Source of the DNA: Ectocarpus siliculosus
Taxonomy: Eukaryota; Sar; Phaeophyceae; Ectocarpales; Ectocarpaceae
Assembly (NCBI GenBank): GCA_000310025.1
Contig: FN649734.1
Coordinates: 5,946,021 to 6,010,020, forward strand
DNA: 64,000 bases
Direction: 5' to 3'
Within the stretch, counting starts at the first letter, position 1. Each line of letters starts with the position of its first letter. Of this stretch, positions 3,690 to 61,700 are shown one piece after another. Position numbers and translations under genes: made by a program. The notes under the pieces are model-generated. The model made no database searches and had not been told where the DNA came from. It saw only the letters and a list, made by a program, of their open reading frames with translations.

Positions 3690-3930
3690 CGCATTATTAG
3701 GGAACCTTTGCATTCCGGGACCTTTTCGCAAATAGTGCAAGGGGAACCTCTGCATTAGGGAACCTGACCCCCACCAACGTTGGGGGAACGCTGCATTAGG
3801 GAACCTCAACCTGAAGTTGGCAGGGGAACCACACCCACGCCAACAGTGCAAGGGGAACCTCTGCATTTGGGAGCCTCACCCCCACCAACGTTGCTGGAGG
3901 AACGCTGCATTGCTGTTGCTGTTGTGGAGA
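3690..3930. repeat. Degenerate GGGAACC-type short repeats
   Basis: The motif 'GGGGAACCTCTGCATTAGGG' and variants recur about every 40-70 bp, alternating with 'CCCCCACCAACGTTG' blocks. Related words (TTCCCTA...GTTGAATACGAAATC) occur directly left of the LTR element near 4130-4172 and again right of it near 18548-18578. The retrotransposon therefore appears to sit in or beside a local repeat family. No coding function is seen. Confidence 0.5.
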
Positions 3931-4180: not shown

Positions 4181-4472
4181 AAGGAGGTGAAGCCGTGGGC
4201 GGTAGCTTGCTCCTAGAGATAGATGAAGGTAGGTTCTGTCGTTGACACACTTGTCCACGACCACGTTGAGATGGGAAAGTTGCTTGTTATTGCTGAGAGA
4301 CGATCAGCAAGGGTCTGAGGTGAAGTGGGGATCCAACTTCACCTCAGGGGGTACGCAGACGAGACAAATCCTAAGAGGGTAGGTGTCTGAAGGGTATACC
4401 TCCTGGGACCGACCCACATCCTATCAACAACAAAATATACCCTATTTAAGCTAGCAGCCACACTCCTTAGCA
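4181..4472 (-). repeat. 3' LTR of the gypsy element
   Basis: Nearly identical to 18207-18498, with about four transition differences. In element sense it starts TGCTAAGG and the conventional CA end falls at 4188, but seven more bases (CCTCCTT) are shared by both copies. It contains a perfect 12-bp inverted repeat (4315-4326 and 4336-4347, 9-base loop) and an AT-rich TATA-like stretch (about 4429-4449). Confidence 0.9.
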
Positions 4473-4488
4473 CTAGCCCACCCTGAAT
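4473..4488 (-). other. Candidate polypurine tract
   Basis: Directly upstream of the 3' LTR in element sense the sequence reads CAGGGTGGGCTAG, which is moderately purine-rich. This is the expected plus-strand priming position of an LTR element. The match is weak. Confidence 0.35.
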
Positions 4489-5875: not shown

Positions 5876-7138
5876 CTAAGAAGAAATGTTGGGAACAGCC
5901 GACGGTAAGGAGTCAGTGATGAGAGGAGTGCGACCCCGGGCGTCGCCCAGAGGGCGCGAGCGATGTTTTTCTGAACACCACGATCCACAGACGGCGTCCA
6001 CGGCGGTGGAGTAGAGGTGCGCAGGCACAGGGAGAACGCTGGGACCCGGGTCATCCAGAAATCGAACGATGTACGAGCCGTCCTGATGGGCACCAATACG
6101 TCCGGTCCACCACAATCCATCGCGGGCCTTGTACCATAGCCGCGCTCCCACCGGAAGGGGCGAAATGCTGAAGCGACGGAGCCAAGTCGCGTGAAGCACA
6201 AGATCAGCCCCAGGAGGCAAATAGCGTTCTCCACGATTCCGGGCTAGCTCTCGTTGTGCCGCGCGTGTCCGAGCCACTCGATACGTACGGTTTCCCTGCT
6301 TGCTTTGGCAGACCTCTCGAGACCAGTACAAGAGGATGTGTCGACGGAATTGATCGAGGTCGGACTCCCGTTCCCAGGAAGGAGTAGTCAGGCCTAGCCA
6401 ATGTGTCTGGTACAGGACAGCGAGAACGCCGCTACGGCCCCGCACCAGTTGATGTCCCGAAATGTAGTCGACCTCGAGGCGCCCGACAGGCACCGACACA
6501 TCATCTGCGGTGACGTGAAACGGTGGACATTTATCGCCGAAAGAGTGCAGGACATAACGCGAAAGCTCAGCGGGCAGAGATTGTGGCAGGTCGTCCGTCT
6601 CGTATGGATTGCGACAGGGCTTGCAACGAAGGACAGACACGCGACATCGAGCTGCTGGGCCGGAAAGATCGGAAGGCAGGTCCAGGTAGAGGAGTTTACG
6701 CGCCAACGGGCTTCCATCTGGGGTGGCGTCGGCCGAAGCGGGACCCACCGCAAGAACTTTGTCAGGCCCCGTCCAGGAAAGCGCGAATTTGGCCTTGAGC
6801 ACCTGTTGATCCGTGTCCTTCCGCACACCCTGTCGAATTGTAGCAGCCGTGTTGTAGGCCCAAGCCCACCCGCCAACAGTAAATTGCGGGAGCTTGTGGA
6901 TGGCGTCCAGCAGGGATGAATTACGGCGTTCGACTCGCGAAATCTTCAGGGCGTTGTACTCACGGACCAGGTCGTAGGCCCGGCGCTGGCGATCGACAGC
7001 CAAGTTGCAATACTCGAGTTGGTCGCGGGCCAAGCTTTGATGACCACCTACCGTGGGATGATCGAAAACCGAAAGCGGAAGCCGCGGAATGCGTCCTATG
7101 TGGATCTCGTTCGGCGCCAATCCAGTCGACTGGTTCAC
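5876..7138 (-). CDS. Integrase C-terminal part with chromodomain and Tudor-like module
   Basis: It is in the same frame as the integrase core and separated from it only by TAG 7181-7183. It starts with the end of the core (NQSTGLAPNEI), an alpha-helical stretch and a GPY/F-like segment (FALSWTGPDKVL). A chromodomain-like unit follows at about 6314-6493 (RLEVDYISGHQ, VLYQTHWLGL, SWERESDLDQF). A Tudor/Agenet-like beta-rich unit lies at about 6005-6157 (VGARLWYKARDGLWWTG, YIVRFLDD). Chromodomains of chromoviral integrases steer insertion by binding methylated histone tails. The Tudor-like unit could add a second chromatin contact (inference). Translation as a separate protein would need a start near 7138. 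It more likely depended on the upstream frame. Confidence 0.75.
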   Translation of the reverse strand: MNQSTGLAPNEIHIGRIPRLPLSVFDHPTVGGHQSLARDQLEYCNLAVDRQRRAYDLVREYNALKISRVERRNSSLLDAIHKLPQFTVGGWAWAYNTAATIRQGVRKDTDQQVLKAKFALSWTGPDKVLAVGPASADATPDGSPLARKLLYLDLPSDLSGPAARCRVSVLRCKPCRNPYETDDLPQSLPAELSRYVLHSFGDKCPPFHVTADDVSVPVGRLEVDYISGHQLVRGRSGVLAVLYQTHWLGLTTPSWERESDLDQFRRHILLYWSREVCQSKQGNRTYRVARTRAAQRELARNRGERYLPPGADLVLHATWLRRFSISPLPVGARLWYKARDGLWWTGRIGAHQDGSYIVRFLDDPGPSVLPVPAHLYSTAVDAVCGSWCSEKHRSRPLGDARGRTPLITDSLPSAVPNISS

Positions 7139-7180
7139 GGAATTGTTGTAGGCAAACTCAACGTGCGGGAGATGTACATC

Positions 7181-8920
7181 CTAATCGTTTTGCTGTTCGT
7201 TGACGACTACCGCAAGCATCTGAGCCATCGTGTGATTGACGCGCTCCGTGCCGCCGTTAGGTTGCGGGTGGTAGGAGCTGGTGGTGACCTTCTTAAATTT
7301 CATCACCTCGTAGATCGCCATGGAGAGCTTCGAGCAGAAATGCAGTCCATTGTCCGACAATAAGGTAGTCGGACATCCCCACTTGGTCATGTACTGGTTG
7401 ACGAAGATGTGAGCCGTCCCTTTCGCCGTAAATTCCGCCGCTGTAACCGCGAACATGTCGGCTCTCCGGCTGAAACGGTCTGTGAACAACAAAATGTAGG
7501 AGTTGCCCTTGGCAGTCACGGGCAGGGGTCCGAAGAAGTCGACGCCGACAACCGTACCAGGCCCCTGTGGGAATGGCATAGCGATGACGGGCCACCGAGC
7601 GGTTTGACGCGAAGTCTTGCGAGCTTGACACACCAAACACGCTCGAAGCCACCAGCGCACGGAACGATCCAGACCAATCCACCAGTAGAAACGCTCAAGC
7701 AGACGTTGTGTACGATGAACACCGAGATGGATGGACGCGGCGGTATGGCAGGCATGAAGGACCCACGAACGCATCAGCATGGGCACGTATACACGGGGCA
7801 CACCAGTATCCGGTAGACGAGTGGTCCTGCCGCCAGAGCGCCCGATCGGCGAAGGCGCCGATTTATGTACGAGGAGGGTGACCTTATCATCGGTCGTGTG
7901 CAGTCTGGTTTTCGCCGCCAACGCAAGTACATCGTCCAACCTAGGGGAGCGGAGCGGGGCACTAAGGGAGAGCAAGTCAGAAGGGGGTGGGGAGGGAGAG
8001 CCGCGAGACAGAAAACGCATAGCCACCGCGCATTCGCTCTCCCGCTGTTGCTCCCTAGCCCAATCCACCGTGCTGAAGCTCTGAACACAAGCTCGCAAGT
8101 GTGAGGGGTCCAAGTCAGTCGGCGCCAACCTAGAGTCAGGCGATCCCACGGAAGAGGCTGTAGAACGAGGAGCTTCAGCGACTGGGGAAGTTGCAGACAG
8201 CGGTGTCGCCCGCGAAGGAGGCATCGGGAGGGGCGAAGTCCCCGGCGAAACCTGCATAGAGGGCAAAACCGAGGATGCAGGGCGCTCCGATGCCGGCGGA
8301 GGCACCGGTGGCGCAGAGGCAGTCGACGAAAACGCCGACGTTGGCGTCTCGGATGGCGGCAGGAGGCGCGCGCCGGTTCGGATGGTCTTGTTTGTCGAGC
8401 GGAACCTGCTAGGACGACGGGCAGTTGACGATGCCCGAGGGACGATGGTAGCCCGCGGCTGGCGTCCGAAATAAGTGGGACCGGCGACGGTGCCTCCGGA
8501 AGCAGCGGTGGTCTTGGCCCGAGTCCGTGAAGAAATGAGCGGTCCCCGCTCCGGAAGCGGAGACAGGACGTGCACATATCTAGTCGCCACAGACGCGGCA
8601 GGAGATATCCCGCGGGACGTAGCTGGAGCCAAAGAGGAAACAGGCACCGGAGACCCGGGAACATGCGAGACCACGAAGACTCCCGAAGACCTCCGAGAAT
8701 CCTTGTAAGCAATCGGCGAGTCTGTTCTAACATCCAGCCGGGTCGGGTGATGACGGCGAAAATCCCCAAAATCGGAGGGCTGTAACGCTGGGGGTGAAAA
8801 GACTCCCGCCAAGCAGGGAGGGCGGAGCCCACCCAAACCTGACCTCCGGCGTAGACGACGAGTGATAGTTGAGTCCACAAGCCCGAATGAGGAAGACACC
8901 CGCTTGATCGACACCATCAA
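7181..8920 (-). pseudogene. Integrase N-terminal and catalytic core, broken by a TAG
   Basis: After a Ser/Pro-rich linker of about 350 residues comes an HHCC zinc-binding segment (HTAASIHLGVH...CLVCQARK), then the DDE core: VGVDFFGPLP (Asp), LLSDNGLHF (Asp) and NGGTERVNHT (Glu). The enzyme would insert the cDNA into host DNA. The frame stops at TAG 7181-7183, but the very next codons continue the conserved integrase motif (DVHLPHVEFAYNN). The stop most simply represents a mutated Trp (TGG). Entry from the RT frame needs a +1 shift within 8727-8923. Confidence 0.85.
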
Positions 8921-10682
8921 TGCAATCGGGGCCGGTTGTGTCCGTGTCTTGTGCTGGTAAAGGCAGGCGCGAAAGGAAATCCGCGTTGCCGTTTGCCGAA
9001 CCTTTCCGATATTTCAGGGTGTAGGTGAAGTTGGACAAGAATTCGAGCCATCGTTGCACCCTGGCGTTGTGTTCTCCAACCTTGCCAATGCTCTCTAAGG
9101 CTTTGTGGTCTGAATAGATGATGAACTTGGTTGACCACAAGTAACCCCGAAGGCGCTTAATGGCCCAAACAATGCCACCAGCTTCCAGATCCAGAACGGT
9201 CCAGTTCCGCTCCGCCGGAAGAGTAGCGCGGCTGATGTACACAATGGGTCTTACCGAGCCATCGAGTTGTTCCTGTTCCAGGGAGGCTCCAAAGCCGTCG
9301 ATGCACGCGTCGGAGCACAAACGGAGAGGGCGGCTGTTGTCCTCGACCGCAGCCCAATCCGGGAAGACCAAAATCGGGGGACGCGCGAGTTCGCTCAACA
9401 ACGTTTTGACAACCTTGACCATGCTCGGGGTGTACTTGAAGGGGACGCCTTGTTTGAGAAGAGAGTTGAGAGGCCGCACCTTGGTGGCGAGATTCTGAAG
9501 GAATTTCCGGTAGTAGCTGAGGCCACCGAGAAGGCCCCTAAGCTGCTTAACATTCGTCGGCGGCGGCATGTGCGTGAGCGCCCGAACCTTGACGCCATCA
9601 GGGCTAACACCGGCCGGGGAGATGGTGTGACCGAGGAAATTGGCGTGGGTGGCGCCGACACGAGCCTTCCCCGGAGACAGCTTGAGGTTGTACTGGCGCA
9701 GCCGTTTGAAAAACTCTATCATGTTGAGCACGTGTCCCAGAGGTTCCTCATCGAAACAGATAACATCATCCAGATATGCAAGCACACGCTCCAGACCGTG
9801 CACCACTCTGTTGATGACCTTGACGAACCAAGACGGGCTCGCGTTGGCTCCTTGCGGCATCCGAAGCCATTCGAACAATTGCGTGGGAGTGCAAAAGGCG
9901 GTGAGCGGGACAGTGTCTTCGTCACAAACGATCTGGTGGAAGGCCGAGTTGAGGTCGAAGATGGAGAACACTTTCCCGGTGTACAGAGAATCCAAGATAC
10001 CGTCCACCCGAGGGAGAGGTTGTCCATCCAAGTCCACCAGGGCGTTGAGACGCTTGTAGTTGACGGTGATGCGAACCGACCCGTCTTTCTTGGGGATGAC
10101 GACCAGAGGAGAAGCCCAGGGAGAAGTGGAATGCTGGATGAGCCCTGCCGCCAAATACTGGTCCAACACGGCATCCATTTTCTTCTGCATTAACGGGTTA
10201 ATACGATACGGGCGTGATGCGACGGGCTTCGTCCCGGCGGGGACAGAAAGAGTGAATGGCATGACGGTGCAGGAACCAAAATCGGTTTTCGAAGTAGAGA
10301 GCACGTCGGAATACTCAACAAGGGCGTCAGCCAAACGATCAATGGCCGCCGGCGTCCATCCCGGGTTGTGTAGATCGAAAGCGAGGTCGTGCATATGTGC
10401 GGGCAGCCTAGCCCACAAGCGCGGAAAGCTGGAGCGCTGTGCCTCGGAGAAACGGTCAAGTAGTTCTTGTGGAGGCGGCTTCGGAGGAGGCGGGGCGGAG
10501 GCTGGGTCCGGAGAGCGGCGAGTCCCGAACTTGGGGCCAACGGCGTTGACCCGATGTGGTGTGTGGAGGACGTGGGGCCGGTAGGAATCGAAGATGGTGC
10601 CGTCTTCAGGGTTTCTACCGGCACTCGTAATAGCGGCGCAGCAGACACTCCAAGAACGTCTCCCTGCTCCAATTCGGCACAA
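8727..10682 (-). CDS. pol: Reverse transcriptase and RNase H of the gypsy element
   Basis: An uninterrupted 651-codon frame. RT motifs in order are SPLVVIPKKDGSVR, IFDLNSAFHQI (first catalytic Asp), LRMPQGANASP, the catalytic YLDD box at about 9765-9776, and FLGHTISPAGV. The thumb/connection YYRKFLQNLA leads into RNase H with LRLCSDACIDGFGA (Asp), LDLEAGGIVWA (Glu), FIIYSDHKALE (Asp) and NGNADFLSRL (Asp). It reverse-transcribes element RNA and degrades the RNA strand. The first 45 codons or so overlap the protease frame, so the true entry point is a frame change near 10610. It ends by overlapping the integrase frame near 8727-8923. All catalytic residues appear intact. Confidence 0.9.
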   Translation of the reverse strand: MCRIGAGRRSWSVCCAAITSAGRNPEDGTIFDSYRPHVLHTPHRVNAVGPKFGTRRSPDPASAPPPPKPPPQELLDRFSEAQRSSFPRLWARLPAHMHDLAFDLHNPGWTPAAIDRLADALVEYSDVLSTSKTDFGSCTVMPFTLSVPAGTKPVASRPYRINPLMQKKMDAVLDQYLAAGLIQHSTSPWASPLVVIPKKDGSVRITVNYKRLNALVDLDGQPLPRVDGILDSLYTGKVFSIFDLNSAFHQIVCDEDTVPLTAFCTPTQLFEWLRMPQGANASPSWFVKVINRVVHGLERVLAYLDDVICFDEEPLGHVLNMIEFFKRLRQYNLKLSPGKARVGATHANFLGHTISPAGVSPDGVKVRALTHMPPPTNVKQLRGLLGGLSYYRKFLQNLATKVRPLNSLLKQGVPFKYTPSMVKVVKTLLSELARPPILVFPDWAAVEDNSRPLRLCSDACIDGFGASLEQEQLDGSVRPIVYISRATLPAERNWTVLDLEAGGIVWAIKRLRGYLWSTKFIIYSDHKALESIGKVGEHNARVQRWLEFLSNFTYTLKYRKGSANGNADFLSRLPLPAQDTDTTGPDCIDGVDQAGVFLIRACGLNYHSSSTPEVRFGWAPPSLLGGSLFTPSVTALRFWGFSPSSPDPAGC

Positions 10683-12958
10683 CCTGCAAGGGGAATACGC
10701 TGGAGACCATTGGAAACAAATGCATCGGGGGACGAAAGCGCACCCACTGCGGGTCGGAACGATACGAGATACTCGCCGATCAGCGCAGGCATGCCAGAAG
10801 AACGGACGAGGTCCACCTCAACCAGAGCAGGCTCCGATCCCAAGGAAATGCCCGAGCTCCCTGCATATTTTAGGTGAAACGAAGAGGCAGGAGCGTCGTC
10901 GTGTGTAGCGTAAACACAAGCGCCAGCGGTGAAACATGGAGAGAGCGTGAGCTCGCCCATAACCCGGCCGTCGGGTCCAGGGTGGGGGAGGGTGGTGAAC
11001 ACGCGAGAGTTGAACCGCACCCAGCTATCACGACCCAGAAGCACGGCGTGCCCCATGGCGGCATCTGGAACAACGCAGGCCCAGACCGCCAAAGAAGCGG
11101 TAGTTCGAGCTCCATAGAGAAAGTTAACGGTGAGACGAACTGACCGAGTGGTCATAAGGGCGGGTCCATCACCAAACCCACCCAAGCGACGAGAGGGCGA
11201 AACACGAACGCTGCCAGCTGTCAAGGCTCCAGCGGCGATCATGGCGGTGACCACGGAGTCGGACACAAAAGACGCAGGAGACCCAGAGTCCAGCAGTGCC
11301 ACTCGCGCGAGTTGAGAAGTGGCTGTAGGTCCTCCATGCAGCAGAACCCGGGTGGTGTAAGAGTCCGAGTCCAACAGGAGCGTGTCGCCGACCAGATCGG
11401 GCCCGTGTTCCAGAAGAGAAGGTTGGTCTGCACAAGCGGAGGTCGAGGCCACCAGATGAACACCAGGAGCATGGTCCCCCGGAGCGTCCAAATGGAGACA
11501 AGCTGGGTCTTCACCCCGGTCCTCCCGTGACGACGAACCGGCCGCAGTAGCAACCTCGTGGATGCGTCTACGGCCATGGGGAAGAGGCTGCGAAATGGGG
11601 GGGGTGGGAGAAGTGGAGGCGGGGAGAGCTTCGCCAGACAGGGGATGATCACGCAAAAGGCGCCGAACTTCCATCAAAGCTTTTCCCAACAAGTTTTTAC
11701 CGCTAGACGCCCACTTGGATGAAACGCTAGCCTCCGGAAAGCATGCAGACATGCCGATACCCCAAACACGATCAAAGGGGCTGGCTTCCGCAAGGAGGCG
11801 GGTACCCGTCTCCAGTAAATGTTGTTTCATGTCGTGGTTTTGAGCGAATTTGGCATACGACCCCGTAAGCACGATCTCTTCTCAACGACGCTCCCATTCA
11901 GCATAGTCAAAAGGACGTACGTTACGACCCAAGTACTTGTGTGTCTTAGGATCGGTTGCAGCCATGATTTTGTCATACGACGTCATATCCCCAAACAACT
12001 TCGCTTTTTCAGACATCATAAATTGCTCACCACATGAATAACGTACCCCCAGTACGTCAAAAGCCGAGGGAGTCCATTGCGAGAACACAGACGGAGGTTT
12101 CCAGAAGAGGAGGACGTCATCCGAAGCGTACTCGCATTTGTCATCAAACGGCGGGGCCGGTGCAGGGCGGAGGGGCAAAGAGCGGGCACCAGGCACAGGC
12201 GGGATTGGGCCAAGCGGACGGGTCCTCATCTCCGACGGGGAGGACCCAGAAAGCGAGGGAGGAGCGGGCGAAGTCGCTCCGGTCCATGATCCGGAGGGTG
12301 GCCTACGGGCGGCGGCTCCGGCGAGGTCAATGTTAGCAGAGGCCATTCGGCTATGAGAGACCTGTTCGTTAGGAGAAGTCTTTCCTGCGGCAGACGGATG
12401 TTTGTGAATGGACGCAGGGCGCTCTGGACTACTCCCCCGTGACAAAGGAACCGAACCTTCCACAGAACGGTGGGCACTACCATCCGATCCCGATGGCAGT
12501 GGTGCAGTCAGCACGTTGTGGGCAGCAGAGGAAGACGCATTCGTATCAGGTGCTGTCACACGGGGGCAGCGGACGGTCGAAGACAACGAAAGCTGCGAAA
12601 GAGAAGGAGAATCGACGGGGTCCCCGACGAGTGTAGAAGAAGGCTCGTGTGCTATCCGAGAAGAGGCCCGGCTGACAACACCAGGAGAGTCTTGGCGAAC
12701 AGTAGTAGACGAGGTTCTTGTTCCTTCTGTAACCCGAGACGGCGAGGTGAGCAGGGGTGAACCGCTCGACGTCTTACCTCCCTGTCGCCCACACCACAAA
12801 GGTGGTGCCGGAGTGGGTTTGTCACGTCCAATATCAGCAGACGATGAGGTGGGTGACGAGGAGGCGGGCCGAGAAACTAGATGTGATTTGTGGGCGCGGG
12901 GAGTATCCAAAGAAGTAGGCTGTACACGCACATCTTGGGAGACTCCAAAAGGGTGCAC
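10190..12958 (-). pseudogene. NADAR domain plus retropepsin-like protease
   Basis: One frame is interrupted once by TGA (11882-11884). From 12958 there is a Ser/Thr/Pro-rich linker, then a NADAR (DUF1768) domain at 12139-11642, then a second linker, then an aspartic protease. The protease signature is LLDSGSPASFVS (active-site DSG at about 11282-11290), with a later hydrophobic VLLGRDSW. The protease would cut the polyprotein, and the NADAR domain is described separately. The reading frame must shift by -1 between 10682 and 10190 to continue into reverse transcriptase, either by mutation or by programmed shifting. Confidence 0.8.
11642..12139 (-). other. NADAR (RibA/RibD-fused, DUF1768) domain inside the retroelement polyprotein
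   Basis: The translated segment has the family landmarks in order: LLFWKPPSVFSQW, YSCGEQFMMSEKAKLFGD, IMAATDP, LGRNVRPFD, W, then after a single in-frame TGA, EEIVLTGSYAKFAQN, LLETG, EASPFDRVWGIG and NLLGKALMEVR. This is an essentially complete domain of about 165 residues. NADAR proteins are implicated in NAD/ADP-ribose-linked chemistry, including N-glycosidic cleavage of riboflavin intermediates and removal of ADP-ribose from guanine. The domain is embedded between gag and protease in one frame, so it is part of the element and not a neighbouring gene. The TGA most simply replaces an Arg codon (CGA). Whether it is active cannot be told from sequence. Confidence 0.88.
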
Positions 12959-13006
12959 GGTGGTTGCTGTCGACGGTAGTACCGGCTGAACTCCGCCATC
13001 GACATG

Positions 13007-14125
13007 TCATTTCTTACCCTTCCAGCCCCTCTTAGCCGAAGTGGAAGTCTCCGACGAGGATTCCGTGTGTGAGGACTGTTTCATGTCCGATGTGTCAGAT
13101 GAACGGCGGGCGCGTCCCGAGGAGTGAGCACGGGGTGGGTTGCGTCCTGTAGGGCGTCTATACGAGGTCATGCGCTTTTTCCATCGACTCCAAAGTGTGG
13201 GATCTTTTTCCATGCAGAGCTTGATGTCATTGTTAAGCAGGTCTGTGGCGTTAATGGACCCACGAGTACAAGATTTGAAGGAGTGGTCTTCCCCTAAGCA
13301 GTTGAGGCACTTGCCCTTGTACAGCCGAAGCGCGTTGCGGCGGTCTTCAGCCGAGACCAAGGGGGTGAACAATGGCGGATCATTCTTGGTTAGAGCCATC
13401 TCACTAGCGACATTGTACACCTCTTGGAAGTGTCCTTGCAACGGCCAATTGCTGTAGTGCAACAGAAAAGGGTCCCGATCATCATTAGGTAGAGGGTCAA
13501 CACTCATCACCGCAGCCGAAGAACCTCGGCTCCACGAAGGGGTCACCGACGAACGCAACGCCGAAGAAGCTACAGCACGCGAAACAGCAGACGAACTCCT
13601 AGCATTCGTGGAAGACACCGAAAAAAAATCGTCCCCATGTACCGCCGGCGTGTGCGCGAATGCACGCTTGTCCAACACATCCCACATATCGTCCAAGCAC
13701 AAAGCATGTCGCCCAAAAGGGGCTTCCATGGAGAGCTGCTCATCCTTGTACACCTGTCCAGACACTACGGGAAACTGCTTCAACATGGAGTCTCGAACAG
13801 CTATCTGCACTTGCGCATCCGAAGGCTTGAACACGTGGTGAGAAACCATGACGGTCATGGCCAGAGCCTTATAGCGACGAATGTATTCTCCGTAAGTCTC
13901 GCCGGTGGACACGCCAAAACTACGAAGACGATCAATCCCCGAGCTCTTGTCTTGAGTGTCCCAGGCAGCCGCCAATTTCTGGATGAAGAACGCGTACGTC
14001 GAGGGCCCGGCCGGTTCCTTGCGCAGATGGTTTTCTACCTGTTGGAAAGTGGCATCAAGAAATTCCGTGGCACGGTTGGTGGTTTGACCTTCAACGACAG
14101 CAGCACGAACACGTTTGCGCAACAA
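13007..14125 (-). pseudogene. gag: Gag (capsid/nucleocapsid) with CCHC zinc knuckle
   Basis: The frame continues directly from the upstream region after an in-frame TGA (14144-14146). The N-terminal half has a retrotransposon-gag look (tandem helices, motifs such as QKLAAAWDTQ and YGEYIRRYKAL). A canonical knuckle CLNCLGEDHSFKSC (Cys-X2-Cys-X4-His-X4-Cys) lies at 13268-13309 and would bind genomic RNA. The C-terminus is Ser/Lys-rich and stops at TGA 13007-13009, after which the same frame stays open into the NADAR-bearing segment. Absent that stop, gag would be fused to everything downstream. Confidence 0.8.
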
Positions 14126-14143
14126 CGGAAGCCATCCTGCGAC

Positions 14144-16765
14144 TCAGGTTGAGGAAGTGAAAGTCTGCTTGCGTTTGACGTCGCTTTTGTTGAGGATCTC
14201 GGTGACCACGCCCTTGCAGCTAGACGCGAAACGAGCAAATTCATCGGGATCAAAACCAAGGGGCAAGCGTGTGACACTATCAAGTTGTTCCGGCTTCAGT
14301 TTGTCCATCTTGTCTTGAATGCGAATGGTGTCGGCCTCCGCTGCAGCGGCGTCCGCGGCGTCCAAAGCCTCCTGCCGCGCTCTCGCCCCCGTGGAAGACA
14401 AAGGCAAGCTAGCATCATCCGGAGGCAACGGCGATGTCGCGTGGGCCGGTGACGCGATGACGTGGCCGGTCGCCGAGCGAGGATCGATCAGGATAGACGT
14501 ACGCGGGAGGAGGGGGGGCACCACCAAAGGCTGTTGTGGCAGAGCTGGGGCGGTCGACGCTGATGGCACCACCAAAGGCTGTTGCGGCAGAGCTGGGGCG
14601 GTCGGCGCTGATGACGATGACACTGCCGTGGCCCTGGCAGCCGCCTCTTCATGACCCTCGTGCCCTGGACGAACTCCCGAGGAACTCGAAGCGTGGTCTT
14701 GCAGTGGTGCCAAATGCGCTCGTGACGAAAAAGGTGGGGCAGAAAATGGTATGCTAGGGGCGTTCGAGGGCACAGAAGGTGGTACATTCGAGTCGGCAGC
14801 AGCATCCACAAGTTGGCCAGGCGTTTGCGCGCGCAGGAGAGTGAGCACTTGTTCCAACAGCATTTCAGTACGGGAAGCCGAAGTCGAGGCGTGTGATGCA
14901 GCATTGCGCGGTGAACCAACCCGTTCGTCCAAAGGCAAGGAAGATGTGGGCTGATCTACCACGGTGTGTGTAGGGGCATGGCTTTTAACCGCGGCGGAAT
15001 GTTCACGAAGTTGCATGTTGGCAAGTTTGAACGCCAAGGTAGACACGGACGGCTGTCCTACAACAGCGGGGGGGCGCAAAACCAGTGGCGAAGAACAGAG
15101 GGAACCGTCTTCTGAAGCATTCTTGTGTTCCCCCAACAGCCCAGAACTACGAAAATCACGCCGATCATACTGCACTTGCCTGTGACCCCGACCTGACTTC
15201 CTTCTCCCTTTGCCACCTCGACCGCTGTCCGAGCTGGTCGCCCTGCTGTTGCCCCCGCTCCTCGTCTGGCTCCGGCTGCGGCTACGCCTACTCGAAGGCG
15301 TGTTGCTCCCGCGACGGTCGCTGCTCCGGCTGCGATCACGCCGAGAAGAAGGCGCGTGACGTTGCTGGCGGTCTGTGCTCCGGCTCCTGCTCCGACTCTG
15401 GCGGTGTCGACGCTTCGACGAAGATCTGGGAGGTTGGGTTCCCGCGTACCCCCGCTCACCATCTTCGACACCCCGCCCTCGCGAAGTGCGCTCGGTCGTC
15501 CCGCTCTTGGCTGTGGGAGCTTGATCACCCCAACGGTTCCTCCGGTTGGTGGAGGCAAGAGCCGCCGACCGACTGTAATCCTTGGTCCCTCCGGAAGCAT
15601 GGACACGGCTTGCAGAATCCTGCTGAGGGAGCTGCAGATCATGCTGGAAGTCTTCGTTGGTTGCAGTACGAGCAAGAGGCAATCTAATTCCCCCATTGTG
15701 TACCACCACCGCTGTTCCCTGGGGACCCTCGGTGAAAGAAGCCCTACGGAGAGCAGACACTAGCTGAAACACACTCTGTTGCAAGGACGGTTCAAGCTGG
15801 TCGAGGGGCTCGATACAAGGTGTGCAAAGCCAAGTCCAGTATAAGATTCGGGATAGCGGTCACGCACAATTTGTTGAAGGCCAGCCCACGCAAAAAAGGC
15901 ACCAGTTCGGGTCGGCATCATGGAAGGTGATCACTTGTGTAGGCGTGTAAAGGGGGCGGGACAGGAATGCTGTGTCCTTCGCGTGAAACCTGTACTCCGC
16001 GGCTTCATCGTCCGACGCGCCGTCGGCCTCCCCGGCCGGCCCATCCAGCGTCACAGAAAACTGGGGAGCAGCAGCCACTTCCGGTCCCGGGGCCGCCTGG
16101 GACGTGAGAGGGGGAATGACACGACGATGGGCGGGGGGCGAAGGCAAAGTTGAAGCTTGCGGGCGTTGCTCCAGGTCCTCCAGCCGTGATCGGAGCGCCC
16201 CCTCCTTCGCCCTAGCCGCTCGAACATACTCCTCTCGCGCCGCCAGTTCCGCTTTCTTCTGCGCAGCAGCCCGAGCAGCCTCGCGCTCCTCCTTCTGCTT
16301 CCTCGCAGCCTCCGCCAGAGCAGCCTCACGCTCGTCCTCCTGCTTCCTTGCAGCATCCGCCAGAGCAGCCTCACGCTCCTCCAGCAGCTTCCGCTCTTCC
16401 GCCGCCGCTACCTTGCTGGCCAGACCTCGGCACCACATCTCGGTCAATTCTTGATAAGCGATGAACTCATCTTGCGGCAAGTTCATCACTGTGGCTTCCT
16501 GAGGGAGCGAGAAAGGACGAACGCAAATGGGGGAACCGGGGGACAAACGAGCTGCCCTGACAACTTCGCGCAGGGAGATCGGTCCATCGTTGTAGGCCTG
16601 CTCCAGGCCCGCCGGATCCGCCGTGGCGATGTTGTCCCTCAGGTCATCAACTGTGGACGCGCCGGGTGCGGACGCGCTCTCGTCGCTCGTCCCGGCCACT
16701 GCAAACAAGCTCCGCGGTGGATGGCTCGTCCTCAGCCTCGTAGTCGAGGATTTCCTCATTTCCAT
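14144..16765 (-). pseudogene. Pre-gag region: Ala/Glu coiled coil and Arg/Ser-rich segment
   Basis: One continuous reading frame is interrupted by TGA at 15860-15862 and ends at TGA 14144-14146. The upstream part (16765-15860) holds a heptad-like run with repeated 'EEREAAL.DAARKQ' units (about 16240-16410), consistent with a coiled coil. The downstream part (15784-14144) holds a long Ser/Arg-rich stretch with many RSRS words (about 15290-15450), resembling SR-type RNA-binding tails, followed by Pro/Ser/Ala-rich spacers. These are plausible structural gag segments. No catalytic motif is visible. Confidence 0.6.
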
Positions 16766-18206: not shown

Positions 18207-18498
18207 AAGGAGGTGAAGCCGTGGGCGGTAGCTTGCTCCTAGAGATAGATGAAGGTAGGTTCTGTCGTTGACACACTTGTCCACGACCACGTTGAGATGG
18301 GAAAGTTGCTTGTTATTGCTGAGAGACGATCAGCAAGGGTCTGAGGTGAAGTGGGGATCCAACTTCACCTCAGGGGGTACGCAGACGAGACAAATCCTAA
18401 GAGGGTAGATGTCTGAAGGGTATACCTCCTGGGACCGACCCACATCCTATCAACAATAAAATATACCCTATTTAAGCTAGCAGCCACACCCCTTAACA
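18207..18498 (-). repeat. 5' LTR of the gypsy element
   Basis: Direct repeat of 4181-4472, beginning TGTTAAGG in element sense. It should carry the element promoter because all element frames read leftward from here. The same 12-bp inverted repeat is at 18341-18352 and 18362-18373. Confidence 0.9.
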
Positions 18499-19345
18499 GT
18501 ATCCCCCATTTGGGTGGGGCTCCCCTGCCAGTATATCAGGTTGAAGTTCCCTAGTGCTGTGGCTGTTGAATACGAAATCTGAAGTATCTCCGACCCAGGT
18601 GCGGAAATAAAATCATCGGTTGGTATTTCGTAGCGCTTTTTCAAGGCAACCCGGTGCCATCTCCCCGACTCCGGTGGCGGTGCGGAAATATTGCAATTTC
18701 ATTGATTTCGTAGCTCTTTCAAGGTACCCCGGTGCGATCTCTCCGACCGGTGCGATGCAAAGAAATACACACAGCAGCAGCGGGCTTACTATACAACTGC
18801 TGTATGCAATAATGGCCTAGACTATGGTGCTCGGCGGTGTTGTTTGCACGCACCCCCCACGGTGCCATCTCTCCGCCGCTTACGATAGTGTATCTACAAC
18901 CCTCCAGGTACTCGAGGTATACTGTACGTGTGTAGTGTCCATGTTTGTTTACCGTTGGTTGTTGCTGGCTGGCAGATCATCTCGGTTAGCAACAACAACG
19001 TACATTTGTTTACAGGGTTATAGGCGCCGTTGTACTGTATGTAGGAGCTTTAGCTTTCCACGCATCGCTCTTTTTCTTTTTCGTTTTCGTTTTTCGTTTT
19101 CTTTTCTCTTTTCTTCACATCCGTTCAACGTTGTTGATTTCTATTGACTTGCGGATCCCTTGGGGCCAGTTTGTTTGAGCGTACCTTTTTAGGGTAAGTT
19201 AGCCTGTGACCACGGGAATCGACCGCGTCATGTGCTCGATCAGTACGGACGTATGAAGGTATAGTCCACTGGGAAGAGAGAAATCGGAACGGTTTTTAAT
19301 GTGAAGACAACCACAACAACAACAACAACAATGTGTTAGCGAGTC
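18499..19345. repeat. Gene-free stretch with CCGGTGCCATCTCTCCGACC-type repeats
   Basis: Between the retroelement and the hAT element the words 'CGGTGCCATCTC.CCGAC' and 'TTTCGTAGC' recur (18621-18760, 18845-18870). The same CCGGTGCCA repeats reappear at 25613-25675 on the other side of the hAT element. A T/C-rich tract (19066-19130) and a (CAA)n run (19313-19330) are also present. No gene is seen. Confidence 0.5.
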
Positions 19346-22700: not shown

Positions 22701-24076
22701 GCGCTTATGGAGTATGCTGATTGGAACCTTCGACTACGCCAGAGTTTTGTCTGCCATAATATCTTGCCTTGCCTCTCCTGTGTGCTTGACGTTCAGCGTC
22801 AACACTCAATGTGCTCCCTTTTGAAATGCGGTGCTAAACACCGTTGCTTCTCGGTTTCACGCGGCAGGACAAATACCTGGACAACGTCCACGAGCGCAGG
22901 TTTCTGCTCCTGGAGCTTGCCATGTACAGGGACGTCTTGTTGACGTTCAAGACAGCATGCTTGGCATTGGAGGGGGACGATGCCCTGGTGTTCAAGGTGA
23001 GGAACACGATTGTGTGGTTATGGAACTTGGGCGTGTATCTTGGTGCTGTTGATGCTCACCATTTAGATTTTCTTGTGTTTCCGAGGTGTACTTCAACATG
23101 CAGAGAGACCTCGACATCGTTGTGAGACAGTTCAACGTAAGCGCAGGCAACGGTGCTGCCATCATGTCTTCGCTGGCTGTGCCCAATTCGAAAAAGGTTC
23201 TTGACAATTGCATGCGGGCAACGGCATGCACCTGCTTCCTTGTTTGGCACACAACATCTCACAGCCAACGCTTGCAATTCCTTGTCGCACATTGTTGTTT
23301 GTCGACAGGCGTACGACATCATCCAGAAAGTGGTGACAACCCTGCGGCTGGACGACCTGAACGCCTACGTGTCCCTCCCCAACGTCGAAGCTCTGCTCCG
23401 AGGAAACCACGAGGGCACACCGGATGAGGCCACGTTAGCCTCTTTGCGCTCACACGTCACGGGCTGCCTCAAGGACATCCGCAGCTACTCAAGCAGCCAG
23501 TTCGGCGACGGCATGGAGGTCAAGTTCCGCCGCGAGCTTGACCTCTTCAAGGCCGCGCGGATCATCAACCACGTGCACGTCCGCCAGCAACCTCTCGACG
23601 ACATCGACCCCGAAGTGTTGAGCATCTTTCCTTTCATCAGTTCGGGCGACATCACCAACCTCCGCGCGGAGATGCCCGAGTACATGAACGCCGTCACCCG
23701 CGTGAGGTCGACGTACCCGGTGCGGAGTTTCTGGGTGGACAACGCGTCAACTCTTCCCGCGTGGTACGCTGTCGTGGAGAAGCTGTGGTTGGTGCAGCCT
23801 TCGTCAGCTATGATGGAACGTGTTTTCTCCGTCCTCAACAACGTGTTCGGAAAGCAGCAGCTATCTTGTCTGAACGACCTCGTGGAGACGACGGTCATGG
23901 TGCGGTTCAACGAGACTGACCGCACCAAGGGGTCGGCTGCCCAAGCTGCAGCCTTGGACGACGAGGAAGAACACGAGGGAGGGCCTGCCCAAGCTGCAGC
24001 CTTGGAGGACGAGGACGACGAGGATGAGGGCGACGAGGACGAGGACGAGGAAGACACCGGGAGCGGACAGGACTAA
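19726..24076 (+). CDS. hAT transposase (spliced, at least 8 exons)
   Basis: Exons: to 20568; 21093-21305; 21612-21767; 21981-22107; 22442-22695; 22868-22996; 23086-23196; 23309-24076 (TAA). Every intron is GT-AG and all phases agree, giving about 860 residues. Exon 1 has a BED-like zinc finger (YCEPC...IRAHC...H). Later exons give AIDGTP and FQFDGCAANRKAM (likely catalytic Asp residues), VNHRWGS (the RW motif) and the C-terminal LVQPSSAMMERVFSVLNN dimerisation block. An acidic Asp/Glu tail follows. It binds the TIRs and excises and reinserts the element. The start is unresolved: the frame is open from 19726 (PRYVFDPTSIGYNANGG...), and an in-frame ATG at 19690 is cut off by TGA at 19723, so a 5' exon or a mutation is possible. 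Confidence 0.87.
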
Positions 24077-58700: not shown

Positions 58701-61700
58701 TGAAGCCGCACAGCTGGAGCGTGGGCGGAGGTGCTGCTGCGTGATCCGCCGGGTATCCTGTCGTTGAACCACTTGCCAGGGGACCACATCGGTCTTGTGG
58801 CGTCTGCTTGGCTTTCTCGGCCTGTCGCTGAGCAGTCTGCCACTCCTGACATGGCAGCGATGAGATGGGGGAGGCGCAGGGGGCGTACTCTTCTGTTTTG
58901 CATGCTTAGCGGTTAGACCATTGACTACGCGTCCTCGAGAGGACGGAGTATTGTTCCCACAGCACCGATCACCAATGGCCAATCGTTCCTTTTTACTATG
59001 CCAAAGGTGCTCGAAAACGTCCTCCGTAATCTATCTATCCGATCGATACCACTTCCCGCTTTTTCAACCCACTTCCTATGCCCCAGTGCAGCTATCGTCT
59101 TCTCCCGGCTATTCCATGCCTCAAACATCTCCATGTACCCTCCTTCTACTTTTCCCAGCTTCGTCATGTACACTTCCCTCTCCTTGGTGTACAACCGACA
59201 TTCCGTAACTATTATACATGAACACGGTCTTTGCACTCGGAGTTCCAATCACTTTTGGACTTGTCGTCTCCATCGTCGACCTTCCAAAATCTTCATCTAC
59301 GTTCTCGAACGCCAATGTCCCTGGTCCTGAATTTGACCTTCAGCGTTGTCCCCGCACCCGTTGGACCTTGCAAGCACTCCGTGAACCCTATTCCTTCTTT
59401 CAGCATTCCGTACACTTCTAGACACTCCTTATCCTTGGTTTCTTTGGTTAGATGCTGTTCTTCTCTTTTGGCAAAAGCAGAAGATGTCTTCTCCTTGAAC
59501 CTCTCCAGACCTTCCGTTTCCAGCGTATCACCTTCGTCAATTTCGAACCCCTTCCATACGTTATCCACAACCTTGACCCACCCCGTGGGTTGCTACCTTG
59601 GACATGTGTGCATTCCACGAGATATGTGTACTGATCCACTACTGCAAGCCCCTCGATCCCCCACTCGTCCGTCTGTACTCCAGTGGTTTCTTCCTGTCCT
59701 CGTTGCATACAGATTCATCATTGTTTCTCCTTCACAATTCAACTTGCCAGCGGTGTCGTGTCACAGGCACACAATTCGTCCGATGATGTCCGTCACCATC
59801 TGCACCAAAGCGCGAAATCCCACCTCGCGTTTCTCCTTCAAGTGATCGTTTATCGCTGCCTCTAGCTTGCTCAAGGCGGCCGCCGAGCGCTCGCGGTTAT
59901 CACCAAAAGCGTCTGCGTGTGTAGCCACGACCAGGACAACGCTTCCGGGTACCCGGCAAAGCAATGAGTCCAGCCACACGTAGACTGTGTCCCCCGTCGA
60001 GGAAGGGTCACACACGAACTTGTGGAGGTCCACGACGAGCACGTGCAATGACCCTGAGGTCAGAAATAGCTGGAAACAAGGGAGAGGGGATATTGAAGCG
60101 ATGGTGATGCAAGGTGTGGGGTGCCAATGTGACCATTCGCAAGTAGCTGTAGACAGGGAAAATGGTTTCGCATCTGCAATGCTCTCCACAATATAAGGAG
60201 AGCCAGACTCAGGGATAGCGACGCGTGGACACATGTCAACCTGACAAGTGGATTTGCGGCATGTCCGCCGTCTCGAACCTGGTGGGTGGAGTAGTAGTCA
60301 TCATGGCCCGCGAAGTCCCAGATAACCACCTCAACCGCGGGGTCGAAGTTTGGCGTCCATGGGTTGATGTGTACGTCGACACCACGAGTCCTGGGTGGCG
60401 GAACTTTTGCGAGTTTTCCGTCCAGCAGGCCCCTTGTCAGAGTGGTCTTGCCGGCGTGCACCGCACCAACGAGCACCACCTTTAGACTTGGTACAACAGC
60501 GACACCCCCGGACTGTGCCAACCCCTCGTAGAAGCTGATGACCTGGTACCAGCCGCCTTGGATCACTTGCCACGGAGGATTTTTCCACCGGTTGAGTTCT
60601 AGCTTGATATCCCTAAGCCAAGGTTTTGCGTTGAACGTTTCCGCCGTCGCTCTGGGTATATCTGCACAATCGATCGTCAAACATGGCGCTGCTTAGCAGC
60701 TTGTCGAGGTTCCGTGTTCGCGAGTCAGGAGTACATTTCGAGCGTCTGGAACAAGTTTAAAGGGGGCGGCGCCTGTTCATATGATGAGGTCACCGGACGA
60801 GTACATCAAATACGTTCTGCCCGCGCACCTCACTGTCGTCGTCACACCTAGACAATGGGACGCAGCCCATACTTCACTGACATCACACCAACAAGCACGT
60901 TGAAGGCCGGCACTAGAGTCACCGCAAGCCCACTGTAGTCACGACAATGTTTCAGGCAGCAGCAGTTGGACAAACGCAACGCATTTGCGTTCACCAGTAC
61001 GCAGTAAAGACAGGCAGACATCCATGCTGCAAGCGTGTTCGAGCGCGGCACCCGGTATGATTCTATACCGCGAGGATAAAATTGCTCCCCGGGAACCAAT
61101 CTCTTTGATCAACAAAACACGAGGTTTACGTAGCCGCGAATTGTCATAAAACAATTCTGGTAGTGTCTTTTTGCCCAAGCAGGAGACGGGGCTACGGTTG
61201 CTCGGTCGTGCCGCCCAACGATTCTGCAGTTTCTCATTTTGTGTTCTACCCATCAAAGGATCCACTCGTGGACTGGATGAACCTAAAGCACAGGACAGAA
61301 TCAAACAACGGTCCCATATGATGCTGACATGAAACCAATAGAAACTGATCGTGTGGACGTGTTAGCGCACACCTTCCTTTTCGGCGACACCTTGTCGTAA
61401 GCGTGTAATACTGTCTTGGAAATATCATCACCAGCAAGCGTACCTCTGGTCTCGACCATCGTAAACGAAAACAGACTGTAGTCGTAGTCGCAAAAGAAGC
61501 CCAGGAGCGTCGGAATACAAAACACAGTGAACTCGCATTCGATTCGTGCAGTATAAACCAACAGCCACATTCGATCTTGGACATTCAGCCTGGCTCGGTC
61601 GTGTGTCGTGCATGACAAAATTGGTCTCCAAAAATGTTTCGCGCACTTCTGCTGTCTCTCTGCTTTGTCAATGTTCACAAACAAAATATATCGCCCTGGT

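Follow-up and report, generated by a model that had tools for sequence, protein, structure and literature searches.

Introduction

Does a retrotransposon that carries an ADP-ribose-removing domain in its polyprotein keep that domain for use, and if so, on what would it act? The question is raised by a locus of the brown alga Ectocarpus siliculosus, analysed here in a stretch of 64,000 nt of contig FN649734.1 (the window, whose numbering is used throughout). The original prediction, made from the letters of the window, placed a NADAR domain at 11642..12139 within a Ty3/gypsy-like gag-pol polyprotein. NADARs are described as stripping ADP-ribose from guanine in DNA and RNA (PMC11543638, PMC11833690).

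A NADAR-bearing Gypsy lineage is already known from Ectocarpus: Dinatale et al. (2025, Genome Biol 26:320, PMC12477816) describe a lineage with a YbiA-family NADAR, exemplified by Gypsy-12_Ec32, whose NADAR has almost exclusively bacterial blastp matches. That source reports LTR elements of 3.9–14.5 kb and a putative C-terminal chromodomain in Gypsy-12_Ec32, and suggests a NADAR role in the processing of RNA intermediates. It was the sole relevant report found in the literature on the NADAR domain together with retrotransposons, Gypsy elements or brown algae. In its main text the terms readthrough, stop codon, frameshift and pseudoknot have no occurrence, and we found there no test of selection or of catalytic residues. 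The additions made here, not seen in the text of that source, are a conserved UGA between gag and pol, a sister element that lacks the NADAR, dN/dS estimates and an analysis of the ADP-ribose pocket.

Results

A degraded Ty3/gypsy-type element with a NADAR domain on the Pol side of a stop codon

The domain belongs to a 14.3-kb LTR element on the minus strand, where it is flanked by a CCHC Gag on one side and an aspartic protease on the other. The element is bounded by a direct repeat of 299 nt that is 98% identical, with its two copies 14,026 apart: the 5' LTR (18207..18505, −), with a TG start at about 18497, and the 3' LTR (4181..4479, −). The aligned LTR core holds four substitutions and leaves the outermost bases unresolved, and a possible 4-nt target-site duplication, ATAC, appears only under a generous reading of the LTR ends. 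Along the minus strand the order is 5' LTR, upstream region, Gag, TGA, NADAR, protease motif, RT, RNase H, integrase, C-terminal stretch and 3' LTR. The region between the 5' LTR and Gag gave no Pfam match in the two frames scanned. The C-terminal part of Gag (13010..14563, −) is homologous to the Gag of a relative, L031 (96% over residues 2–520), and holds the CCHC zinc knuckle CLNCLGEDHSFKSC (13268..13309, −). On the Pol side, the protease motif LLDSGSPASFVS (11261..11296, −) was recognized by eye, with no Pfam protease match. RT and RNase H (8760..10562, −; PF00078, PF17917 and PF17919) are frame-shifted relative to the NADAR-protease frame and include the RT catalytic motif YLDDVICF (9753..9776, −). 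The integrase region (7184..8821, −) matches Integrase_H2C2 (PF17921, 1.4e-13) and, at 8.7e-7 and 29.6 bits, rve (PF00665), which is under its cut-off of 32.6; its frame ends at a TAG (7181-7183). The C-terminal part of Pol (5918..7180, −) contains a chromodomain-like stretch at about 6437-6481, and the Chromo profile reaches 13.2 bits in the relative L033, below its cut-off of 25.1. The tail of Pol (5918-6400, −; LWYKARDGLWWTGRI...YIVRFLDD) gave no Pfam match but looks Tudor/Agenet-like. The order PR-RT-RH-IN, with the protease assigned by eye and followed by RVT_1, RNase H, H2C2 and rve, is of the Ty3/gypsy type.

Outside the element, a two-copy 61-nt direct repeat (89%; 3727-3787 and 3838-3898) lies just beyond the 3' LTR. 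Further away are a hAT-family transposase C-terminal dimerisation region (23141-24073, +; PF05699, 3.1e-5) and a Roc GTPase domain (60063-60692, −; PF08477, 1.5e-8), the latter with a nearby LRR-like frame below cut-off. LRR motifs of this kind are typical of brown algae.

The NADAR domain itself (PF08719) was found by hmmscan at 11651..12112 (−), inside the interval originally proposed, and is split by an in-frame TGA (11882-11884) with matches on both sides (3.2e-15 over profile positions 2–87 and 4.2e-22 over 91–163). In the unbroken copy L033 the same profile matches at full length (155.4 bits over 1–163, over the curated cut-off), and the plus strand across the region shows stops and nothing NADAR-like. 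A chance match is excluded by these E-values together with 150 homologous matches in the genome.

The window copy is dead and cannot make a whole NADAR domain. The TGA within its NADAR stands where 42 of 44 aligned rows have Arg; a second TGA in Gag (14144-14146) is a nonsense codon at a position that is Trp in L031; the TAG that ends the integrase frame is Trp in both L031 and L033; and the coding sequence moves to another frame at about 10.54 kb and again at about 8.8 kb. The original prediction had the CCHC Gag, the NADAR and the protease in one frame, which is true, but that frame is not continuous, since a TGA at 13007..13009 (−) parts Gag from NADAR-Pol. Likewise, the domain is indeed built into a Ty3/gypsy-type element, but it sits on the Pol side of the stop and is not simply fused to Gag.

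The NADAR marks a single clade of elements

The whole-genome search covered 189 Mb in 492 contigs, and 150 of 230 NADAR candidates were scored. All 150 exceed the Pfam cut-off, and 21 of them have an internal stop. Unbroken copies of the NADAR element are present elsewhere in the genome: 24 of the 150 lack a stop and lie in open frames of at least 2,000 aa, although two of these frames, at more than 6,000 aa, look like artefacts and another, that of L170, contains a compensated frameshift. For the matches G000:C3:3913787-3914242 and G000:C489:435177-435536 the open frames measure 10,887 and 6,365 aa and possibly run through N.

The association was also followed from the RT and RNase H domains. 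Sixty-four RT relatives were scored as loci (788 candidates; 68 matches, less four that were second pieces of a locus counted before), and 59 of them carry a NADAR, 56 by coordinates, mostly at about 1.1 kb upstream of RT, and three with shifted frames on inspection of the upstream DNA. In the remaining five, homology to the element is lost, or the contig ends, before the NADAR would be reached. For RNase H, 150 of 383 candidates were scored. In the top 73 rows, which represent other Ty3/gypsy groups, no scored NADAR match falls in the 6 kb upstream; of the other 77 rows, 59 have an upstream match, mostly at 2.3 kb. This NADAR-rich block includes 18 rows without a scored NADAR, and 11 of these 18 were inspected as DNA. 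The inspected rows comprise two broken NADARs (L125, L137), one contig edge (L123), four that lose element homology before the NADAR (L124, L131, L132, L136), three members of other groups (L133–L135) and one sister element (L130). In the RT tree (35 rows), a branch supported at 96/99 sets apart the 17 rows with a NADAR together with three truncated copies; beyond these and the sister, 14 rows lack a NADAR, as judged from coordinates for 11 of them and from tblastn against the kilobases upstream for L133–L135. The expectation that related copies carry the domain is thus borne out by the 150 scored matches and the RT relatives. The further statement that Ty3/gypsy elements do not normally carry a NADAR holds for the other groups in this genome, but the Ectocarpus lineage described in PMC12477816 is a published exception.

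The sister element, L130/L162 (G000:C11:1451300-1457502), has a Gag that is open to a TAG, after which the same frame stays open for another stretch; relative to this stretch its protease-RT frame is shifted. No NADAR match occurs in the roughly 1 kb between its gag stop and protease. The simplest history would be a single gain of the NADAR after the split from this sister.

The NADAR groups with bacterial homologues

Where did the domain come from? In a NADAR tree of 88 rows, the twelve element NADARs are set apart by a branch (99/85), and their sisters are NADARs from two Myxococcota MAGs and one Planctomycetota MAG (99/93). The only eukaryotic NADAR in the tree besides those of the elements is 8bau, and an intermediate eukaryotic donor may have been involved. 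Families F1 and F3, and F5 and F5b, are grouped alike in the NADAR and RT trees; the join of F2 with F4 is strong in the RT tree and only 81/0 in the NADAR tree. Neither the searches nor the NADAR tree group viral NADARs with those of the elements, and the viral contigs, searched for RT, gave 14 pattern matches, none of them a relative. Contamination was considered as the source of the sister bacterial NADARs and rejected: in L050–L052 the NADAR lies in separate frames of 187–235 codons from stop to stop. Inspected by eye, the flanks of L050–L052 showed no retroelement.

A conserved in-frame UGA separates gag from pol, with readthrough predicted

The stop between gag and pol is not peculiar to the window. 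With the identity of the stop left open in the search, the gag/pol junction was located in 26 of 30 fetched relatives, and it is TGA in 26 of 26, a count in which four copies supplied the pattern of their own family, as did L013 through its second fetch, L032. In each of the five families the letter after the codon is C; the junction of the sister reads TAG-G. The conserved in-frame UGA at the gag/pol junction is solid; the pseudoknot and the readthrough are predictions.

In F1–F4 and in the sister, a stem starts 8 nt past the stop, and a second stem pairs the loop with the 3' side. In the window, this predicted stimulatory RNA (8-nt spacer, stem 1, loop and stem 2) occupies 12932..13006 (−) and is weak in both the window copy and its own family. 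The pseudoknot was scored against dinucleotide shuffles in one or two copies per family. With a spacer of 8 alone, the number of shuffles out of 300 that were as good was 0 for F2, 0 for F3, 1 for F4, 1 for the sister, 7 for F1 (L022, unbroken) and 20 for the window. With a spacer of 8 or 9, it was, out of 1000, 0 for F3, 1 for F2, 4 for F5 (L030, spacer 9), 6 for F4, 7 for the sister, 48 for F1 (L022) and 91 for the window. F5 has no stem at spacer 8, and in L033, an F5 copy with an open Pol of 2,477 aa, no such pseudoknot was found (all 1000 shuffles did as well). Families differ by compensating changes in stem 1, whose first pair is T-A or C-G and whose third is G-C or A-T. The sister has a similar junction without a NADAR, with a TAG gag stop, an 8-nt spacer and an 8-bp stem. 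Since the NADAR comes after this conserved UGA, in the Pol part, and most families have a predicted pseudoknot at the junction, it is probably made only by readthrough.

The element lineage keeps its NADAR under purifying selection

After the exclusion of stop-bearing rows, dN/dS between subfamilies F5 and F5b is 0.065–0.103 for the NADAR in five pairs, at a dS near saturation (1.8–2.6); most other between-family pairs are saturated outright. The same pairs give 0.071–0.097 for the protease part (two pairs of 400 codons and three of 36–98) and 0.102–0.129 for the linker (computable in three of the five). Because dS is near saturation, the counts by codon position are the safer evidence, and in the first F5–F5b pair they are 29/22/79. 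Amino-acid identity in these pairs is 0.76–0.79 for the NADAR, 0.55–0.59 for the linker that follows it, and from 0.68 (long pairs) to 0.80 (short pairs) for the protease part. The NADAR is conserved like the protease, and not clearly more. Within-family values (0.14–0.60) come from very few substitutions and were not used.

Two comparisons gave values near 1, F3–F3b (1.10) and F5–F5c (1.07), and both were traced to compensated frameshifts in the NADARs of L169 (G000:C46:325697-327706) and L170 (G000:C89:160021-162030), where the frame stays open. Dead copies such as these are expected. The lineage itself keeps the NADAR under purifying selection, as had been anticipated, with dN/dS well below 1, and a neutral passenger is ruled out by these values. 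None of the three outcomes that the original prediction named as fatal to itself, namely the lack of a NADAR match, a one-off insertion or a dN/dS near 1, was found.

The ADP-ribose pocket is that of the YbiA subfamily

Residues were compared in 44 rows (46 full-length rows minus L169 and L170) representing 41 distinct copies, three of which had been fetched twice; three of the 41, including the window copy, have a stop. In the Phytophthora nicotianae NADAR, 11 side chains are named around the bound ADP-ribose in PMC11543638. We took 8bau as this protein by numbering, all 11 named residues fitting at offset 2. Nine of the 11 are kept in 42–44 of the 44 element rows; of the two exceptions, Y84 is Phe in all rows and D86 varies. 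The equivalents of E43 and E125 are present in all 44 rows, and that of K50 in 43. K75, kept in all 44, makes no ligand contact itself, and its counterpart in the E. coli C7 NADAR, K115, is reported to be needed against DarT1 in cells (PMC11543638). The YbiA subfamily is described as marked by a catalytic-centre Glu (E125) in place of Asp or His (PMC11543638, PMC11125620), and Glu at this position in all 44 rows assigns the element NADAR to it. The pocket is strictly conserved over five families.

A host writer of the modification was sought in the same genome. Six-frame searches, in which exon-split genes may be missed, found no DarT (PF14487) and no TIR_2, and the genome search returned four short matches for PARP and one for Macro. 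On these grounds, we know of no host guanine ADP-ribosyltransferase.

Discussion

What would the element do with such an enzyme? Ribosomes would read through the UGA that closes gag, in most families with the aid of the predicted downstream pseudoknot, to give a NADAR-PR-RT-RH-IN product. The NADAR would then be a scarce enzyme that enters the particle along with RT and integrase, and there or in the nucleus it could hydrolyse ADP-ribose off guanine in RNA or cDNA of the element and reverse damage or marking by the host. The logic would be comparable to that of the dUTPase domains of some retroviral polyproteins. Our best inference is that the NADAR hydrolyses guanine-linked ADP-ribose on the RNA or cDNA of the element. 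The full account, in which a degraded Ty3/gypsy-type copy represents a lineage that gained a YbiA-subfamily NADAR once in its N-terminal Pol, keeps it under purifying selection, expresses it by readthrough and uses it for guanine-ADP-ribose hydrolysis on its own RNA or cDNA, seems to us evenly balanced between right and wrong. Counting against it are the negative DarT and TIR_2 searches with only short PARP and Macro matches, the compensated frameshifts of L169 and L170, the near-saturated dS, the uneven fit of the pseudoknot among copies and the failure of the comparable Tca2 junction in yeast (PMC2194720). More tentatively, and on balance against our expectation, the NADAR may be a packaged counter-defence and repair enzyme that clears guanine-ADP-ribose from the element's own RNA or nascent cDNA, which would imply an undiscovered algal nucleic-acid ADP-ribosylation system that restricts retroelements.

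An alternative that we consider unlikely is that the NADAR acts on small molecules, such as NAD-derived signals, ADP-ribose derivatives or riboflavin-pathway intermediates, and blunts NAD-dependent host defence or silencing instead of acting on element nucleic acid. The conserved ADP-ribose pocket is compatible with such substrates; PMC9503650 proposes that viral NADARs, chiefly those of phages, act on soluble ADP-ribose derivatives, and describes NADARs as acting on riboflavin intermediates. However, the same source argues that the polyprotein NADARs of eukaryotic RNA viruses target mainly macromolecular conjugates, a minor Pol-side product would suggest action within the particle and not throughout the cell, and the TIR_2 search of the genome was negative.

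It is very unlikely that the NADAR serves for binding, recognizing ADP-ribosylated chromatin or nucleic acid and, jointly with the chromodomain-like stretch at the C-terminus, guiding the integration complex. Its position in Pol would suit this role, and PMC12477816 reports domains that read chromatin in each of the four Gypsy lineages of Ectocarpus, but the conservation of the E43, K50 and E125 equivalents goes beyond what simple binding would need, and a domain that precedes the protease would probably be cleaved off the integrase. Still less probable is that the NADAR serves the polyprotein as structure or spacer and is not used as an enzyme: L169 and L170 keep their frame open with part of the NADAR destroyed, as a spacer might allow, yet the low dN/dS between F5 and F5b, the strict conservation of the pocket over five families and the lower identity of the adjoining linker all speak against this. 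The dead window copy, with its stop within the NADAR, would fit a host or bacterial NADAR gene that entered a dead element a single time and had no selected role, but this reading is refuted by the 150 scored matches, by the presence of the domain in several subfamilies and in 59 of 64 RT relatives, by its restriction to one clade and by purifying selection.

If the preferred reading, reversal of ADP-ribosylation on the element's nucleic acids, is true, eukaryotic cells would use base ADP-ribosylation against retroelements, in parallel to bacteria, which use DarT against phages. The element would then be a natural probe for the host writer. Selection and pocket evidence together turn a catalogue note into a direct biochemical prediction.

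Comparison with known systems

At the enzyme level, the closest likeness is to the P. nicotianae NADAR, described as an orphan YbiA-subfamily guanine-ADP-ribose hydrolase outside any retroelement polyprotein (PMC11543638); the two share a profile match (E 1e-27), nine of the 11 pocket side chains and the YbiA-type Glu. DarT1-NADAR toxin-antitoxin pairs differ in having Asp in place of this Glu, and they include a DarT partner, whereas none was found in the six-frame search of the whole genome.

The junction resembles two described cases. Murine leukaemia virus (MuLV) has gag-UAG-pol with an 8-nt spacer and a pseudoknot (PMC4178896); the in-frame stop is common to both, as are, in most families of the element, the spacer and a predicted pseudoknot, but the element has UGA-C in place of UAG, and not every copy or family fits. 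Tca2 shares an in-frame UGA between gag and pol, an 8-nt spacer and a pseudoknot (again predicted in the element), and its similar UGA-pseudoknot layout is reported to have failed to give readthrough in yeast (PMC2194720).

Other polyprotein or retrotransposon NADARs can be compared by description. Positive-strand RNA virus polyproteins with a NADAR, proposed to remove host ADP-ribose marks (PMC9503650), also join the domain to a polymerase, but these viruses do not use reverse transcription. The NADARs in ORF1 of Tx1 LINEs of Crassostrea gigas, described as divergent (PMC12477816), are likewise retrotransposon-borne, but in a non-LTR element and in ORF1 instead of Pol. The closest described system is the published Ectocarpus NADAR-Gypsy lineage, to one of whose named families the window element may belong: there, as here, the members of a single RT lineage have the NADAR as the N-terminal part of Pol.
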